Source of the DNA: an uncultured bacterium
Lineage (GTDB): Bacteria; Chloroflexota; Anaerolineae; J036; Brachytrichaceae
Direction: 5' to 3'
DNA: 36,065 nucleotides
Assembly (NCBI GenBank): GCA_903921365.1
Contig: CAIXPS010000076.1
Coordinates: 1-36,065 of the forward strand
Shown here: piece by piece, positions 16,742-23,510 of the stretch
How positions within the stretch are numbered: position 1 is the first letter of the stretch
Layout: each line of letters opens with the position of its first letter
The notes under the pieces: model-generated
Told to the model about the DNA's origin: nothing
Database searches by the model: none
The model's input: only the letters and a program-made list of their open reading frames with translations
Program-made: the position numbers and the translations under genes

Positions 16742-17998
16742 ATGGCTTATCTGAGCGAGTTGCTCGGCAAACCCGTTGCTGATATAGATGGCAACAAAAT
16801 TGGAACAATCACAGACGTTATCGCATCTCCACGCGCAGATGCATTGCATCCACAAATCGCCGCGATTGCGGTGAAACGTAAAGGCGTCGACTTTCTCATT
16901 CCCTATGCGGACATTGCGGTGCTTGTCGCCCCCGCAGTGCCGGTCAGCAAACGTATTGCGGATATCATCCAATACCAGGTCAGCGAAAGCGATCTGTACC
17001 TTGCGCGCGACGTGCTGGATAAGCAGATCATCGACACCAATGGAATGCGCGTCGTGCGCGTGAACGACCTTGACCTGGCCAGGGTAAACAACGCGTTCTA
17101 CATCGCCAACCTTGATATTGGCAGCATGGGCTTGCTGCGCCGGCTTGGCCTCGCTTCAGTGGCTTCGAAGGTCGCGGTCAAACTGGGTCGGCCGTTGAGC
17201 TCCGGCGTTATCGCGTGGCATGACACGGAGTTATTGCCGGGCGATCAACCTATGAGACTCAAGGTGGCTAGTGACAAAATCACCGACCTCCACCCCGCCG
17301 ACCTTGCCGAAATCATCAGCGATCTCAGCCGCTCCGAGAGCAGTAAGTTTCTCGAATCGCTCGACATCAAAACAGTTGCCGACGCGCTGGAAGAGGTCGA
17401 ACCCGAATATCAGGCGAGCCTGGTTGAAGGGATGACTGACGAGAAAGTCGCAGATGTGTTGGAGGAGATGTCTCCAGACGCCGCTGCAGACCTGCTCGCC
17501 GAACTCCCGGAGGAACGCAGCGAAGACCTGCTAAACCTCATGCAACACGAAGACGCGCGGGACGTCCGCGAACTGCTGACTTATGCGGTTGACAGCGCGG
17601 GCGGTTTGATGACAACTGAATATGTCGCCGTTCGTCCTGACCTGACTGCCGCGCAGGTCATGGAAGTGCTTCGTGAGACTGCCAATGAAGCAGAGACCAT
17701 TTTCTATGTCTATGTGACCGAAGCGGATGAACGACTAGTGGGTGTGTTCTCACTCCAGAATCTGGTGCTGGCCAAGCCGGATCGCAGGGTTAATGACTTC
17801 ATGCACCATCGCATAGTCACAGTCATGCTCGAAGATACTCAGGATGAAGTCGCGCAAGTCGTCGCAAAGTACAACTTGCTGGCAGTGCCCGTTGTAGATG
17901 AGCAGCATCGCATGCACGGCATCGTCACAGCAGACGATGCGCTGGACAAGATCATCCCAACTGCATGGAAAAAACGCATCCCCAAGCTGTATCGCTGA
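16742..17998 (+). CDS. PRC-barrel, MgtE N-terminal and CBS domain protein (soluble metal-sensing partner)
   Basis: A soluble protein of 418 residues. Residues 1 to about 75 form a PRC-barrel (MAYLSELLGKPVADIDG), with a likely second PRC-like unit up to about 160. An MgtE intracellular N-domain follows from about residue 185 (HPADLAEIISDLS, then helical repeats rich in Glu and Asp), then a pair of CBS domains from about 290 to the end. In MgtE channels the N and CBS domains sense Mg2+ and close the pore, but here the membrane part is missing. GGAGGT at 16731-16736 is a strong ribosome binding site. The NRAMP-like transporter starts 53 bases downstream, so this protein probably senses the metal or gates that transporter; this pairing is inference. 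Confidence 0.88.
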   Translation: MAYLSELLGKPVADIDGNKIGTITDVIASPRADALHPQIAAIAVKRKGVDFLIPYADIAVLVAPAVPVSKRIADIIQYQVSESDLYLARDVLDKQIIDTNGMRVVRVNDLDLARVNNAFYIANLDIGSMGLLRRLGLASVASKVAVKLGRPLSSGVIAWHDTELLPGDQPMRLKVASDKITDLHPADLAEIISDLSRSESSKFLESLDIKTVADALEEVEPEYQASLVEGMTDEKVADVLEEMSPDAAADLLAELPEERSEDLLNLMQHEDARDVRELLTYAVDSAGGLMTTEYVAVRPDLTAAQVMEVLRETANEAETIFYVYVTEADERLVGVFSLQNLVLAKPDRRVNDFMHHRIVTVMLEDTQDEVAQVVAKYNLLAVPVVDEQHRMHGIVTADDALDKIIPTAWKKRIPKLYR

Positions 17999-18051
17999 AG
18001 ATTGGCGCCTGCTAAAACATCAAATACTGACATCGTATCGTGGAGTGAACT

Positions 18052-19314
18052 ATGACCAGACTTTGGAATCGCCTGAAACCCTTCCGAACACGCATTCTGC
18101 TACTGCTGGCTGTCATCGGGCCTGGCATCATCACCGCCAATGTCGACAACGACGCCGGCGGTATCACCACCTACTCCGTAGCCGGCGCTCGTTATGGCTA
18201 CAGTTTGCTATGGATGCTAGTCCTCGTGACGCTGGCGTTAATCATCGTGCAGGAGATGAGCGCTCGACTTGGCGTCGTGACCGGCAAAGGATTAGCAGCG
18301 CTCATTCGCGAGCGTCTTGGCGTCCGTTGGACAACGATCATCATCGGCATCCTCCTGATCGCCAACCTGGCAAACACCGTGAGTGAATTCGCCGGAATCG
18401 CCGCCAGCATGGAGATATTCGGGGTCAGCAAATATATCTCGGTCCCAATTGCCGCGATCGCAGTCTGGTTTCTGATCGTTAAAGGCAGCTATAAATCTGT
18501 TGAGCGGGTGTTTCTTGTAGCAAGCGTGATCTACCTAGCCTATGTCATCTCCGGCTTTATGGCAAATCCTCCCTGGGCGGCTGTTTTGAAAGAAACACTG
18601 ACGCCAACGTTTAAACTCGAATCCGGTTACGTCGCGCTGTTTATTACGGTCATCGGCACCACCATTGCGCCATGGATGCAGTTCTATCAGCAGTCAGCCA
18701 TCGCGGATAAGGGCATCAGTGTTAGTGTCCTGCCCTATGAACGCCTCGATGTCATCATTGGTTGTTTCTTTACTGACATCGTAGCGGCCTTTATTATGAT
18801 CGGGTGTGCCGCAACCATTTACGCCCACAATCTACCGATTGAATCCGCTGCGGATGCTGCGCGCGCACTGGCGCCGCTGGCAGGGCCATTTGCCACGGTA
18901 TTATTCGCCCTCGGACTTCTGAATGCCTCGGTATTCTCTGCGGCTATTCTGCCATTGTCCACTGCGTATGCTGTGTGCGAAGCGTTCGGCTGGGAATCAG
19001 CCGTAAACCGCAACCTGCGCGAGGCGCCGATCTTTTTCGGCATTTACACCGCGTTAATCGTGCTGGGCGCGCTGATTATCCTTCTTCCAATCAAGTCGCT
19101 CGTTGATGCAATGCTGGCCAGCCAGACGCTGAACGGCGTGCTCCTGCCAATCATCCTGATCGTCATGTTGCGCTTGATCAATGACAAACGGTTAATGGGA
19201 AAATACGTCAATGGGCGCATCTTCAACATCATCAGCTGGGCCATGGTTATCGTGCTGATCTTCCTGACAGGCGTCCTCGTCGTCACAAGCACATTCCCCG
19301 GCCTGTTGAGCTAA
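18052..19314 (+). CDS. NRAMP-family divalent metal transporter with non-canonical metal site
   Basis: A membrane protein of 420 residues with about eleven helices. TM1 has GPGIITANVDNDAGG: the canonical DPGN is replaced by D34-A-G-G. The TM6 region reads TIAPWMQ at residues 204-210 where typical Mn/Fe members have a Met-Pro-His motif, so the Met that selects transition metals is replaced by Ala206. Described NRAMP-related magnesium transporters (NRMTs) carry changes at these positions, as far as I recall, and the upstream MgtE_N/CBS partner also points to Mg2+. GGAG at 18042-18045 is the ribosome binding site. The family is sure; Mg2+ specificity is inferred. Confidence 0.88.
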   Translation: MTRLWNRLKPFRTRILLLLAVIGPGIITANVDNDAGGITTYSVAGARYGYSLLWMLVLVTLALIIVQEMSARLGVVTGKGLAALIRERLGVRWTTIIIGILLIANLANTVSEFAGIAASMEIFGVSKYISVPIAAIAVWFLIVKGSYKSVERVFLVASVIYLAYVISGFMANPPWAAVLKETLTPTFKLESGYVALFITVIGTTIAPWMQFYQQSAIADKGISVSVLPYERLDVIIGCFFTDIVAAFIMIGCAATIYAHNLPIESAADAARALAPLAGPFATVLFALGLLNASVFSAAILPLSTAYAVCEAFGWESAVNRNLREAPIFFGIYTALIVLGALIILLPIKSLVDAMLASQTLNGVLLPIILIVMLRLINDKRLMGKYVNGRIFNIISWAMVIVLIFLTGVLVVTSTFPGLLS

Positions 19315-19326
19315 GTGAATGGATAC

Positions 19327-20894
19327 TCAGTCGGCCGCATGCGCCAGTTCGATCTGCGCCTCTTCAGCGCTTGCGATCTCTGCGCCCTTGACTTCATTGA
19401 TGCGCGACAAGAGAAAAATGCCAATAACAAAAAAGACTGAGATTGAGAACACGCTCGCCCGCGGGTTGCCCGTAATCTGGCCTACGATGCCATAAAGCAA
19501 TGGACCGAGGATGCCTGCGAACTTCTCGCTCAACCCATACAGACCGAAAAACTCACCCGACTTGGCGCGCGGCGACAGGCTGGAGAACAACGAGCGGCTT
19601 AATGCCTGCGTCCCACCCTGCACAGTTCCGACCAGCCAGCCGATCATGAAAAACTCCGCCTGGGAACGCAAAACAAATCCCCACAAGGGAATAATGGTGT
19701 AGATCAGCAGACCCAGAATAATTGCGCGTTTGGCATTCAGGCGCTCGCTCAAACCTTTGAATAGTCTGCGCCCAATAAAGGCTGAGAACAGAACGCCTGC
19801 AATTTGATCAATTGCGATGGCAGCGAAGGTTGCCGGGATGTTCAGCGCACCGGTGAGATTCGCATACACACCGATCAACGGCAGCGTGACGCCTGTCCAG
19901 ATCAACATCGAGACATATGAGGCGCGCGCCTTGTTTTCCGGATTAGGAATGCGGCCATAAATCAAGGCGTAAGGGAAAGCCACAAATTGAGTCAATAGCA
20001 GCGTGCCGATCAACACCGCGGTGTCCAATCCAAGCGCAGCGCCATAAGCCGTCGCCAGCAGAATGATTGCCCCGATCCCTTCCATATAGAACCAGAACGC
20101 AATCAGCATTTTGAAAAGCTCGCTGTAATGGCGGATGTCCTTGACCGTATGTCCTAAGCGCACAAAAGTGTCGCGTATAGCGCTTCCGGTCGTGGAGTGT
20201 GCCAAGGGGTCGCGGGCGGTTCTGGCACGCGCAAGGCAAGCGGAACGCTAAACCCAATCCACCATATGCCCACGGTTAGAAATGCGATGCGCACAGCCGT
20301 CCCGCTGTCGAGACCAATCTTGTCAGAGAACAGATAAAGCACCGTGTTTAGAGCGAGTAACACGCCGCCACCGATGTATCCCATTGCGTAACCCTGGCTG
20401 GAAACACGGTTCAGGTCAGCAGGATGCGCCACATGGGGCAGGAGTGAGCTGCTCAGCCCAAGCGCAATATTCATTGCGACCTGCGTCAGAATATACAACA
20501 CCAGCGCAAGCTGCCACATCCCGGTTGTCAGCACGAACATCATGGATGCCAGGATTCCACCTGCGCCAGTGGCAAGCAGCAGAAATCGTTTTCTCCGGCC
20601 GGTGATATCCGCCAGCGTGCCGATAATCGGCGCAAGGATGGCGGCAGCAAATAAGGCCAACGACACAGATAGCGCATATACATTCGAAGCCGTATCCCGC
20701 GCCAGAGCCATTGCATCGGCGTCGCCGGCAACTTTACCCGCAAGCAGAAATGCCGGCGCGGCGATTGCAATGAAAAATGGCGGGAAGAAAGTTGACGCGG
20801 TAGTGGTGATATACGCGTGATTTGCCCAATCGTAAAATGACCAGGCGCGAATCCGACGACTGTACGACCGGTCTGCCTGGGGTGTATTTTGCAT
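19327..20894 (-). pseudogene. UMF1/Atg22-type MFS transporter split by a frameshift
   Basis: Two overlapping frames encode one protein. The 5' part (20894 down to 20154) starts with the hallmark FYDWANHAY and holds about six helices with the MFS loop GTLADITGRRKR. The 3' part (about 20205 down to 19327) holds the remaining helices, including the segment YGLSEKFAGILGPLLYG. The frames cross at a run of four G (20206-20209; CCCC on the coding strand), where PPATP would continue into LAHSTTGSAIRDTF if one more C were present. No in-frame ATG begins the second part; it opens with TTG. AAGGAC precedes the first ATG. An assembly or sequencing error in the homopolymer is as likely as a true mutation. 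The substrate is unknown; relatives are putative permeases. Confidence 0.85.
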
Positions 20895-21041: not shown

Positions 21042-23510
21042 ATGAATCACAGGACGCGCAGGTTGGAAATAGCCCTGCTTTCTCTTGGCCTCTTCTTCGG
21101 CTGGATAGCTGCCACATCACTTTGGCTGCAATCGCATGCCGCCATGACTCTCGTCACGCCGGCAGTCTGTACGCTTGCGGGCATTGTGGCGCACTTATGG
21201 TTGAACCGGGTCGCCCCGCAACGCGATCCACTATTGCTACCTATTGCGCTCACACTGACAACCTGGGGCTTGCTCGTCATTGCGCGGGTTGCGCCGAATT
21301 TCCTGGAGAGACAGCTTGTATGGTTGCTTGTTGGACTGACGGCTCTGTGTGGTGTGGCCGCAAGCCGTGACAGATTGCGCTGGCTTCGTAGATTCAAGTA
21401 CACATGGCTTATCGCCAGTCTTCTATTGCTCGCGGCCACACTGTTTTTAGGCGTAAATCCTGCGGGTGAAGGCGCGCGCCGCTGGTTGAGCATCGCCGGC
21501 GTCTTTTTACAACCGTCCGAGGTGCTGCGCCTGTTGATGATTGCTTTCCTGGCCGCCTTCTATAGCGAACGCACGGGTCTGGACCGGATTGGCCCGGCGC
21601 TCGCACGGACAAGTCACACGCCTGCATGGAAATACCTTGCCCCGCTGCAAAACAGATTGAGGTCTCTGTCGCCTCTGGCGCCCTCATTGGTAATGTGGTT
21701 GTTCGCGCTTGGGTTGCAGGCAACCCAGCAGGACATTGGCGCTTCGGCGCTGCTCTTGATCACCTATGCCGTCATGTTGTACCTTGCCACTGGCGACCCA
21801 ATCCTGCCTCTTTTTAGCGCAGTCATGCTGGCGTCCGCCATCGCCATTGGCTACTTCTTCTCAAGGCTCATTGCTTTGCGCGTGAATATCTGGCTGAACC
21901 CATGGCTTGACCCGCAGGGCAACTCGTTTCAGATCGTCCAGTCTCTCATCGCGGTCGCCAGTGGCGGCATCTTCGGGCAAGGCCCTGGGCAGGGACGCCC
22001 AATTTATGTGCCTGCAATACACACCGACTTTCCATACGCGGCGATTTCCGAGGAATACGGGTATCTGGGCGCATTGGCAATGCTTGTTTTGTTCGGACTG
22101 CTCCTTTTGCGCGCCTGGCGCATTATGCGCGGAACGCAGTCGGCATACATGCTGCTACTCGCCGGCGGGTTGGGAACACTGATCACCACCCAGCTATTCG
22201 TTATCGTTGGTGGAAATCTAGGGCTCATACCGTTAACGGGTGTGACGGCGCCCTTCGTCAGTTATGGCGGGAGTTCCCTCCTGGTCAGTTTTATCAGCAT
22301 CGGTCTCTTGATCCGTCTATCTTGTGACTCTGCGCCTGAGCAACCCAACCGACAACGCCTGATTCACCACCAGTCAGCGCAGACGGCAGGCTATGACCTG
22401 GCGCTGAAAGTGACGCCCAGACAACGCCTCGCCACGCGAAACGCAATCGGTTTCGCTCTTGCCTTAATAGCAATGGCGGCAGTCGCTACAAGTTACTGGG
22501 GTGTCTTTCGCGCCGCCGACCTCACAAACCGCAGTGACAATCCGCGTCAGGTTGATCAAGAGCGCGCTATTGCGCGCGGTTCCATTGTTGCGCGCGATGG
22601 CACGCTGCTTGCATACTCAGAGCTACAGGCTCAAGCCAACGACTTCTCACCGCCCGTGTATGTGCGGCGTTATCCTATCGCATCAGCGGCGCCGCTCATC
22701 GGTTATTACAGTCTATGGCACGGGGTCGGAGGAATTGAGGCCTATGCAGATACTCCACTGCGTGGGACAACCACTCCTCTGAACAGCCTGCTGCATCAGA
22801 GTCAGGTCGGAATGAGTATTACGACGACGCTTGATATCTCAGCGCAGACCTATGTCGCAGATGTTATAAGCGGGACAATCGGCGCCGTAGTGATCATGGA
22901 TTGGCACACGGGCGAAATCCTTGTGCTGGCAAGCACCCCTGGTTACGACCCCGCGACGCTTGACGCCGACTGGGATACTTTGCGAAACATGGCTGATGCA
23001 CCGCTACTGAATCGCGCCACACAGGGTCTGTACCAGCCGGGCGCGCTACTCGCATGGCTTTACGCGAATGAGCGCGGACTTAAACAGGAATCTTCAATCG
23101 AGGCCTTAGCGTGGGATCCGAATGATCGATTTGAGTTGGGCAAACCCGTTACATTTGAACTGAATAATGCATCGGCGCCTTATCCGCCCAGCGGCGCATA
23201 CACCGAAACCATAGGCCAAGGGACGTTGCGTGTGACGCCGTTGCGTGTTGCCGTGACTGCCGCCAGGCTTGCCGCTGGTCAAGTTATCGTGCCCACGGTC
23301 ACCCTTGTCAAATCCTCAAATCAAAACCGCGCTGGACATTCTGAGATGCGCGCAGAATACACCGGTCTCGCTCAAAGTTCGGCAGGGAAAACTGTTGGAT
23401 GGTATGTGGGGATTGACGACCAAGTCGTTACCGTCCTGACCCTCGAAGCTCAGACAGATAACGCCGTCCTGTTGAACGAAATGACGGCCAGGCTGAAGAA
23501 ACGCCAATAA
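21042..23510 (+). CDS. SEDS glycosyltransferase (FtsW/RodA) fused to a degenerate class-B PBP transpeptidase domain
   Basis: The protein has 822 residues. Residues 1 to about 430 are a SEDS peptidoglycan polymerase with about ten membrane helices. The conserved QQDIG and HTDF motifs are present, the latter with D329 at the position of the catalytic Asp of E. coli RodA/FtsW. After another helix (about 470-490), residues 500-822 resemble a class-B PBP: RGSIVARDGTLLAYS, AVVIMDWHTGEILVLASTPGYDP, YQPG and TIGQGTLRVTPLRVA. The active-site SxxK is replaced: after YQPG (664-667) come A668-L-L-A671. The SxN region is deleted and the KTG motif reads KTVG (783-786). A SEDS polymerase activated by a dead PBP is inferred. 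No ribosome binding site is visible. Confidence 0.9.
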   Translation: MNHRTRRLEIALLSLGLFFGWIAATSLWLQSHAAMTLVTPAVCTLAGIVAHLWLNRVAPQRDPLLLPIALTLTTWGLLVIARVAPNFLERQLVWLLVGLTALCGVAASRDRLRWLRRFKYTWLIASLLLLAATLFLGVNPAGEGARRWLSIAGVFLQPSEVLRLLMIAFLAAFYSERTGLDRIGPALARTSHTPAWKYLAPLQNRLRSLSPLAPSLVMWLFALGLQATQQDIGASALLLITYAVMLYLATGDPILPLFSAVMLASAIAIGYFFSRLIALRVNIWLNPWLDPQGNSFQIVQSLIAVASGGIFGQGPGQGRPIYVPAIHTDFPYAAISEEYGYLGALAMLVLFGLLLLRAWRIMRGTQSAYMLLLAGGLGTLITTQLFVIVGGNLGLIPLTGVTAPFVSYGGSSLLVSFISIGLLIRLSCDSAPEQPNRQRLIHHQSAQTAGYDLALKVTPRQRLATRNAIGFALALIAMAAVATSYWGVFRAADLTNRSDNPRQVDQERAIARGSIVARDGTLLAYSELQAQANDFSPPVYVRRYPIASAAPLIGYYSLWHGVGGIEAYADTPLRGTTTPLNSLLHQSQVGMSITTTLDISAQTYVADVISGTIGAVVIMDWHTGEILVLASTPGYDPATLDADWDTLRNMADAPLLNRATQGLYQPGALLAWLYANERGLKQESSIEALAWDPNDRFELGKPVTFELNNASAPYPPSGAYTETIGQGTLRVTPLRVAVTAARLAAGQVIVPTVTLVKSSNQNRAGHSEMRAEYTGLAQSSAGKTVGWYVGIDDQVVTVLTLEAQTDNAVLLNEMTARLKKRQ

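Follow-up and report, generated by a model that had tools for sequence, protein, structure and literature searches.

A natural SEDS-PBP fusion in which the penicillin-binding protein has lost its transpeptidase active site and probably persists as an activator of the polymerase

Introduction

Class B penicillin-binding proteins (bPBPs) have been argued, on the strength of point mutants, to perform two separable jobs: activation of a SEDS partner and crosslinking. Can a natural bPBP give up the second of these and be kept for the first? The question is raised by a gene in a 36,065-nucleotide stretch of DNA from an uncultured bacterium of the Chloroflexota class Anaerolineae (hereafter the window, meaning this whole stretch). 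It encodes a SEDS protein joined to a PBP domain which a preliminary description, made from the sequence alone, had considered to be catalytically dead and to retain only the activator role.

Results

The frame and coordinates of the gene proved to be correct. It runs from an ATG at 21042 to a stop codon at 23510 and encodes a protein of 822 amino acids, in which a SEDS glycosyltransferase is followed by an 11th membrane helix, a PbpA-type pedestal and a degenerate transpeptidase. The features referred to below are as follows (window coordinates, strand, description and basis):

21042..23510, + strand: whole SEDS/pseudo-bPBP fusion gene, 822 aa (open reading frame, orthologues)
21042..22331, + strand: SEDS glycosyltransferase half, residues 1-430 (PF01098; model matches FtsW/RodA)
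21519..21530, + strand: E160 and R163 of the SEDS motif QPSExxR, which is QPSExxK in most relatives (orthologue alignment)
22026..22028, + strand: D329, the catalytic-type Asp of ECL4 (HTDF), aligned with HTDF of E. coli RodA (RodA/FtsW chain alignment)
22416..22508, + strand: 11th transmembrane helix, residues 459-489 (helix in the model; sequence)
22530..22547, + strand: membrane-proximal motif RSDNPR, residues 497-502 (orthologue conservation)
22557..22856, + strand: pedestal or PbpA-type dimerisation domain, residues 506-605 (PF21922; match to M. tuberculosis PbpA)
22878..23507, + strand: degenerate transpeptidase domain, residues 613-822 (partial PF00905; cleft relaxed and shortened)
23043..23054, + strand: lost SxxK, A668-LL-A671 (alignment against 54 intact orthologues)
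23358..23366, + strand: lost KTG box, Y773-T-G775, in 'EYTGLAQ' (alignment)
23388..23399, + strand: KTVG, residues 783-786, not the KTG box (10 residues past the KTG column, before W787)

The SEDS half is matched by the Pfam profile PF01098 over residues 87-428 (E 2.6e-75, above the curated cut-off), and both HTDF, with D329, and QQDIG are present in it, as the preliminary description had said. The PBP half displays the class B trait of a membrane helix followed by a pedestal: the helix at 459-489 is the former N-terminal anchor of the bPBP, and PF21922 matches residues 512-578 (34.7 bits, cut-off 27). Comparison of the remainder with PF00905, a check that had been proposed at the outset, gives only a partial match (34.7 bits, cut-off 22.1) in which the best stretch covers no more than profile positions 1-43 of 299. 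In the predicted model of the fusion (mean pLDDT 81, pTM 0.74), the SEDS half matches FtsW (8bh1_A; Z 33.1, rmsd 2.5 over 329 residues) and RodA (6bas; Z 30.3). Residues 504-822 match M. tuberculosis PbpA (3upp_A; Z 29.1, rmsd 3.3 over 308 residues), which is the best solved-structure match of the PBP half. The model carries no inter-domain error values, and residues 326-328, which adjoin D329, have a pLDDT below 50.

The alignment against intact orthologues places A668 and A671 in the columns of the SxxK serine and lysine, upholding the original assignment. The SxN region is absent, again as first proposed, because around 100 residues have been deleted between SxxK and KTG; the two motifs lie a median of 105 residues apart in the window's family versus approximately 203 in active relatives. 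The third motif had been misplaced. KTVG was thought to stand in for the KTG box, whereas the alignment sets the box at Y773-T774-G775, with tyrosine therefore replacing its lysine, and KTVG lies downstream at 783-786. An intact SxxK elsewhere in the PBP domain would have overturned the interpretation, but none was found in the domain alignments.

A protein search returned full-length fused matches throughout the window's family. A profile of the PBP half matched more than 100 of 298 genomes of the window's class at E 1e-65 or better and, in a sample of the phylum, 105 of 251 genomes at E 1e-55 or better; 120 regions were taken for alignment with intact references. The search for orthologues that the preliminary description had suggested thereby recovered the dead form in at least 81 sampled genomes from 20 families of the window's class, with an intact SxxK, SxN or KTG in none, and the fused and dead form was read in 19 genomes of the window's own family. 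Nine dead members have a serine in the SxxK serine column, never with the lysine alongside. Active orthologues with all three motifs numbered 54 (12 from the window's class, 39 from other classes of the phylum and three from Bacillota), and all seven catalytic positions are intact in every one. In those other classes 39 of the 40 sampled homologues keep the motifs, the dead exception being the locus L198.

With the active site missing in 81 of 81 dead-clade orthologues, the alanines cannot be put down to a sequencing error. More generally, the idea that the gene is a decaying pseudogene, a sequencing error or an assembly artefact is scarcely tenable and, for the window gene, is already refuted: the frames are uninterrupted in orthologues of 20 families, dN/dS is well below 1 (see below) and the members share a tree. 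The idea does find an echo in L030 (366-1505), where KTG is kept and a GEL-rich tandem repeat occupies the place of both SxxK and the helical segment; L082, from the same genus, is intact, and L030 looks like a recent loss or a misassembly. A chance fusion in a single assembly was likewise rejected, as 10 families of the window's class contain the fused form.

The PBP occupies one open frame with the SEDS gene in 56 of 81 dead orthologues versus 1 of 51 active Chloroflexota orthologues, and the former count is a lower bound, given that some of the split cases are located where a contig ends. Within the dead lineage fusion is frequent yet not obligatory, since the dead clade includes split gene pairs. 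An active orthologue from another class of the phylum is also fused to its own SEDS half (L208:4056-6956).

D329 is invariant in dead (78 of 78 readable) and active (44 of 44) orthologues alike, so that its loss, which would also have spoken against the initial interpretation, was not encountered. E160 and D231 are invariant in the dead orthologues that are readable there. Position 163 is lysine in 61 and arginine in 18 of 79 dead rows, and lysine in 41 and arginine in three of 44 active ones; the fusion has arginine. These data bear on the suggestion that the SEDS half handles a lipid-linked substrate other than that of peptidoglycan, with the dead PBP a relic of an old pair. With a product other than peptidoglycan one would expect crosslinking to be lost, and two more SEDS genes, of ordinary size, are kept in the source genome, but the catalytic-type residues and ECL4 are the same as in active orthologues that have a transpeptidase partner, and we regard the suggestion as highly improbable.

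Regional identities were compared using one or two genomes per family, a sample in which the SEDS identity of dead and active sets is equal (0.495 versus 0.488). At this equal divergence, identity in the dead and active sets, respectively, is 0.635 versus 0.545 for ECL4, 0.474 versus 0.347 for the membrane-proximal region, 0.428 versus 0.405 for the pedestal and 0.509 versus 0.504 for the transpeptidase N-lobe, whereas it is 0.249 versus 0.478 for the transpeptidase core and 0.304 versus 0.635 for beta3-5. Within RSDNPR, conservation of N500 is 1.00 in dead versus 0.87 in active orthologues, and that of D499 is 0.90 versus 0.35. The cleft is the least conserved region and is trimmed by up to half in dead orthologues. 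Across ten close pairs, dN/dS was 0.09-0.47 for the pedestal, 0.10-0.47 for the pseudo-transpeptidase and 0.07-0.25 for the SEDS half. All computable values, whichever of the three parts they refer to, are well below 1, the maxima of 0.47 coming from one low-dS pair, and they indicate that the fusion protein is under purifying selection. It might be supposed from this retention of a selected head domain that the PBP half now binds wall glycan or stem peptide without catalysis, for example to hold the nascent strand. The cleft itself, however, is the poorly conserved and shortened region, making a role of this kind very unlikely.

The gene neighbourhood is informative at the level of the family. 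FhaA_N/FHA genes adjoin the SEDS-PBP pair in 29 orthologous loci from 12 families, and an MTAP-like phosphorylase gene does so in 41 loci from 16 families, suggesting a connection between the family and gene clusters of the FhaA/FhaB-RodA-PbpA type. Within the window no FHA-type or MTAP-like gene was found beside the fusion, which has an ATG22-like transporter and a xylulokinase-like FGGY kinase next to it. The ATG22-like gene (19327-20894, - strand) is present as two overlapping open reading frames, each matching a different end of the profile, a pattern suggestive of a frameshift. Also in the window (16742-19314, + strand), an Nramp transporter gene comes after one for a PRC, MgtE_N and CBS protein that lacks a membrane part, and the two are perhaps a sensor-transporter pair. 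At L038:9932-11242, from the Chloroflexota MAG CFX4, a dead-clade SEDS gene stands beside an MTAP-like gene and has no PBP gene after it.

The FHA genes at these 29 loci, together with the continued conservation of the transpeptidase N-lobe and of LNRATQGLYQPG and the published binding of MreC to the PBP2 pedestal (PMC10257715), could be taken to mean that the PBP half is mainly a scaffold which docks crosslinking enzymes or regulators (MreC-like, or FHA- and kinase-linked) and does no polymerase switching. We think this unlikely as a complete account, in that the strongest extra conservation falls on ECL4 and the membrane-proximal motif, on the side facing SEDS, although docking and activation are not mutually exclusive.

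A quick tree built from the SEDS part alone and rooted on Bacillota places active pairs at the base and unites the 77 dead rows of the window's class in one clade (SH-aLRT 86), with the families f6 and f33 as nearest outgroups. L198, which belongs to another class and is both dead and fused, is placed with an active relative. A topology joining it to the other dead rows was rejected (AU p 0.009), albeit for a group that was named only after the tree had been seen. On this sequence evidence, catalysis was apparently lost twice, in one main event and in the independent dead, fused homologue L198. The SxxK-KTG distance is approximately 203 in active orthologues, 205 in the dead family f19, 133 in f15, f41 and f45, 120 in f27 and 105 in the window's family. 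Because the distances fall stepwise and dead f19 is untrimmed, it seems that the loss of catalysis preceded the trimming of the cleft, which took place in several lines. Loss of catalysis probably predates fusion too, because split gene pairs also occur in the dead clade. The preliminary description was therefore right about the dead partner, but needs amending in that the loss likely came before the fusion and the fusion is optional. The fused state requires seven changes on the tree, and only two to three independent pairs bear on a possible link between fusion and loss, too few for a phylogeny-aware test of whether fusion follows loss of catalysis.

Discussion

We consider it probable that this gene encodes a SEDS peptidoglycan polymerase whose fused PbpA-type bPBP has been turned into a non-catalytic activator. 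The SEDS half demonstrably retains both its fold and the catalytic-type residues, and four elements survive in the PBP half: the membrane helix, the membrane-proximal motif, the pedestal and, from the transpeptidase, its beta1-beta2 lobe. Retention of the dead partner by at least 81 sampled relatives in 20 families points to switching on of the polymerase as the function left to it. Those elements of the activator-only interpretation that can be tested from sequence all turned out in its favour, whereas activation of the polymerase by the PBP half is an inference. The same is true of lipid II polymerisation and of the absence of penicillin binding, for none of which is there any biochemistry.

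The interpretation leans on published work concerning the ECL4-pedestal contact, inactive bPBPs and an engineered fusion. The polymerase of SEDS-bPBP synthases is turned on through the action of the pedestal on ECL4, and the contact between these two is the activation interface (PMC8078798). Division in B. subtilis is supported by catalytically dead PBP2B when PBP3 is present for crosslinking (PMC5656894), inactive SpoVD gives partial support to asymmetric division in C. difficile (PMC12713402), and RodA-PBP2 engineered as a fusion is functional (PMC6207328). Counting against an activator is the arginine that replaces the QPSExxK lysine in the fusion. Moreover, conservation of the transpeptidase N-lobe, including the LNRATQGLYQPG stretch, exceeds what pedestal contact alone explains. 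The stretch ahead of the lost SxxK, PLLNRATQGLYQPG (residues 654-667 in window numbering), is conserved in dead members and is not accounted for by activation alone.

Mechanistically, the pedestal would pack against ECL4 of the SEDS half and keep the polymerase active, although this contact is inferred and was not measured in the model. The shrunken head may serve as a lever or as a docking surface for regulators; a use for it can be envisaged because RodA-PBP2 has been proposed to be regulated via opening of the bPBP (PMC10257715). Crosslinks in the strands made by the fused synthase would have to come in trans, from L,D-transpeptidases or from further PBPs. Since crosslinking would fall to other enzymes, the fused synthase should not itself bind beta-lactams. 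The source genome contains five intact class B PBPs (two MecA_N-type and one inside a second SEDS-PBP fusion, P0002), three class A PBPs and eight YkuD proteins, and we infer that these could be the trans crosslinkers. Whether the whole clade represents a third arrangement of SEDS synthase, in which the bPBP is an obligate non-catalytic allosteric subunit, strand making is insensitive to beta-lactams and crosslinking occurs only in trans, is a finer judgement, and the balance tips only slightly in favour of it.

Neither a natural SEDS-bPBP fusion nor a naturally dead bPBP partner was described in the literature that we searched, although subscription papers were mostly not covered. A lineage in which one bPBP job has been kept and the other dropped, in dozens of genomes and apparently twice, provides natural evidence that the two are separable. 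The activator job seems to need the membrane base, pedestal and N-lobe of the bPBP, and the cleft seems to be dispensable. The fused and trimmed form also offers a compact single-chain object for structural work and lipid II assays of SEDS activation.

Among known systems, the fusion family resembles the actinobacterial type of RodA-PbpA pair found beside FhaA/FhaB, with which it shares the PF21922 pedestal and, in 29 orthologous loci, FhaA_N/FHA neighbours. M. tuberculosis PbpA is, however, acylated by penicillins, whereas in the fusion the three motifs are gone and the two proteins form one chain. RodA-PBP2 and FtsW-FtsI have in common with it the SEDS fold, the catalytic Asp and a helix and pedestal expected to lie near ECL4 (PMC8078798), but in those systems the bPBP crosslinks and in the fusion it cannot. 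The paralogue P0002 from the same genome (L002:46-3540, G000:C49), whose gene is followed after approximately 20 bases by the start of that for the MecA_N-type PBP P0003, has the same SEDS-then-PBP order in one protein. It differs in its length of 1165 amino acids, its intact PPGSVFK, SDN and KTG motifs and its very divergent SEDS half. Counterparts also exist as laboratory constructs, namely the engineered RodA-PBP2 fusion (PMC6207328) and the S309A variant of B. subtilis PBP2B that supports its SEDS partner (PMC5656894). In contrast to these, both the fusion and the dead bPBP described here are natural, and they have been kept across a clade.
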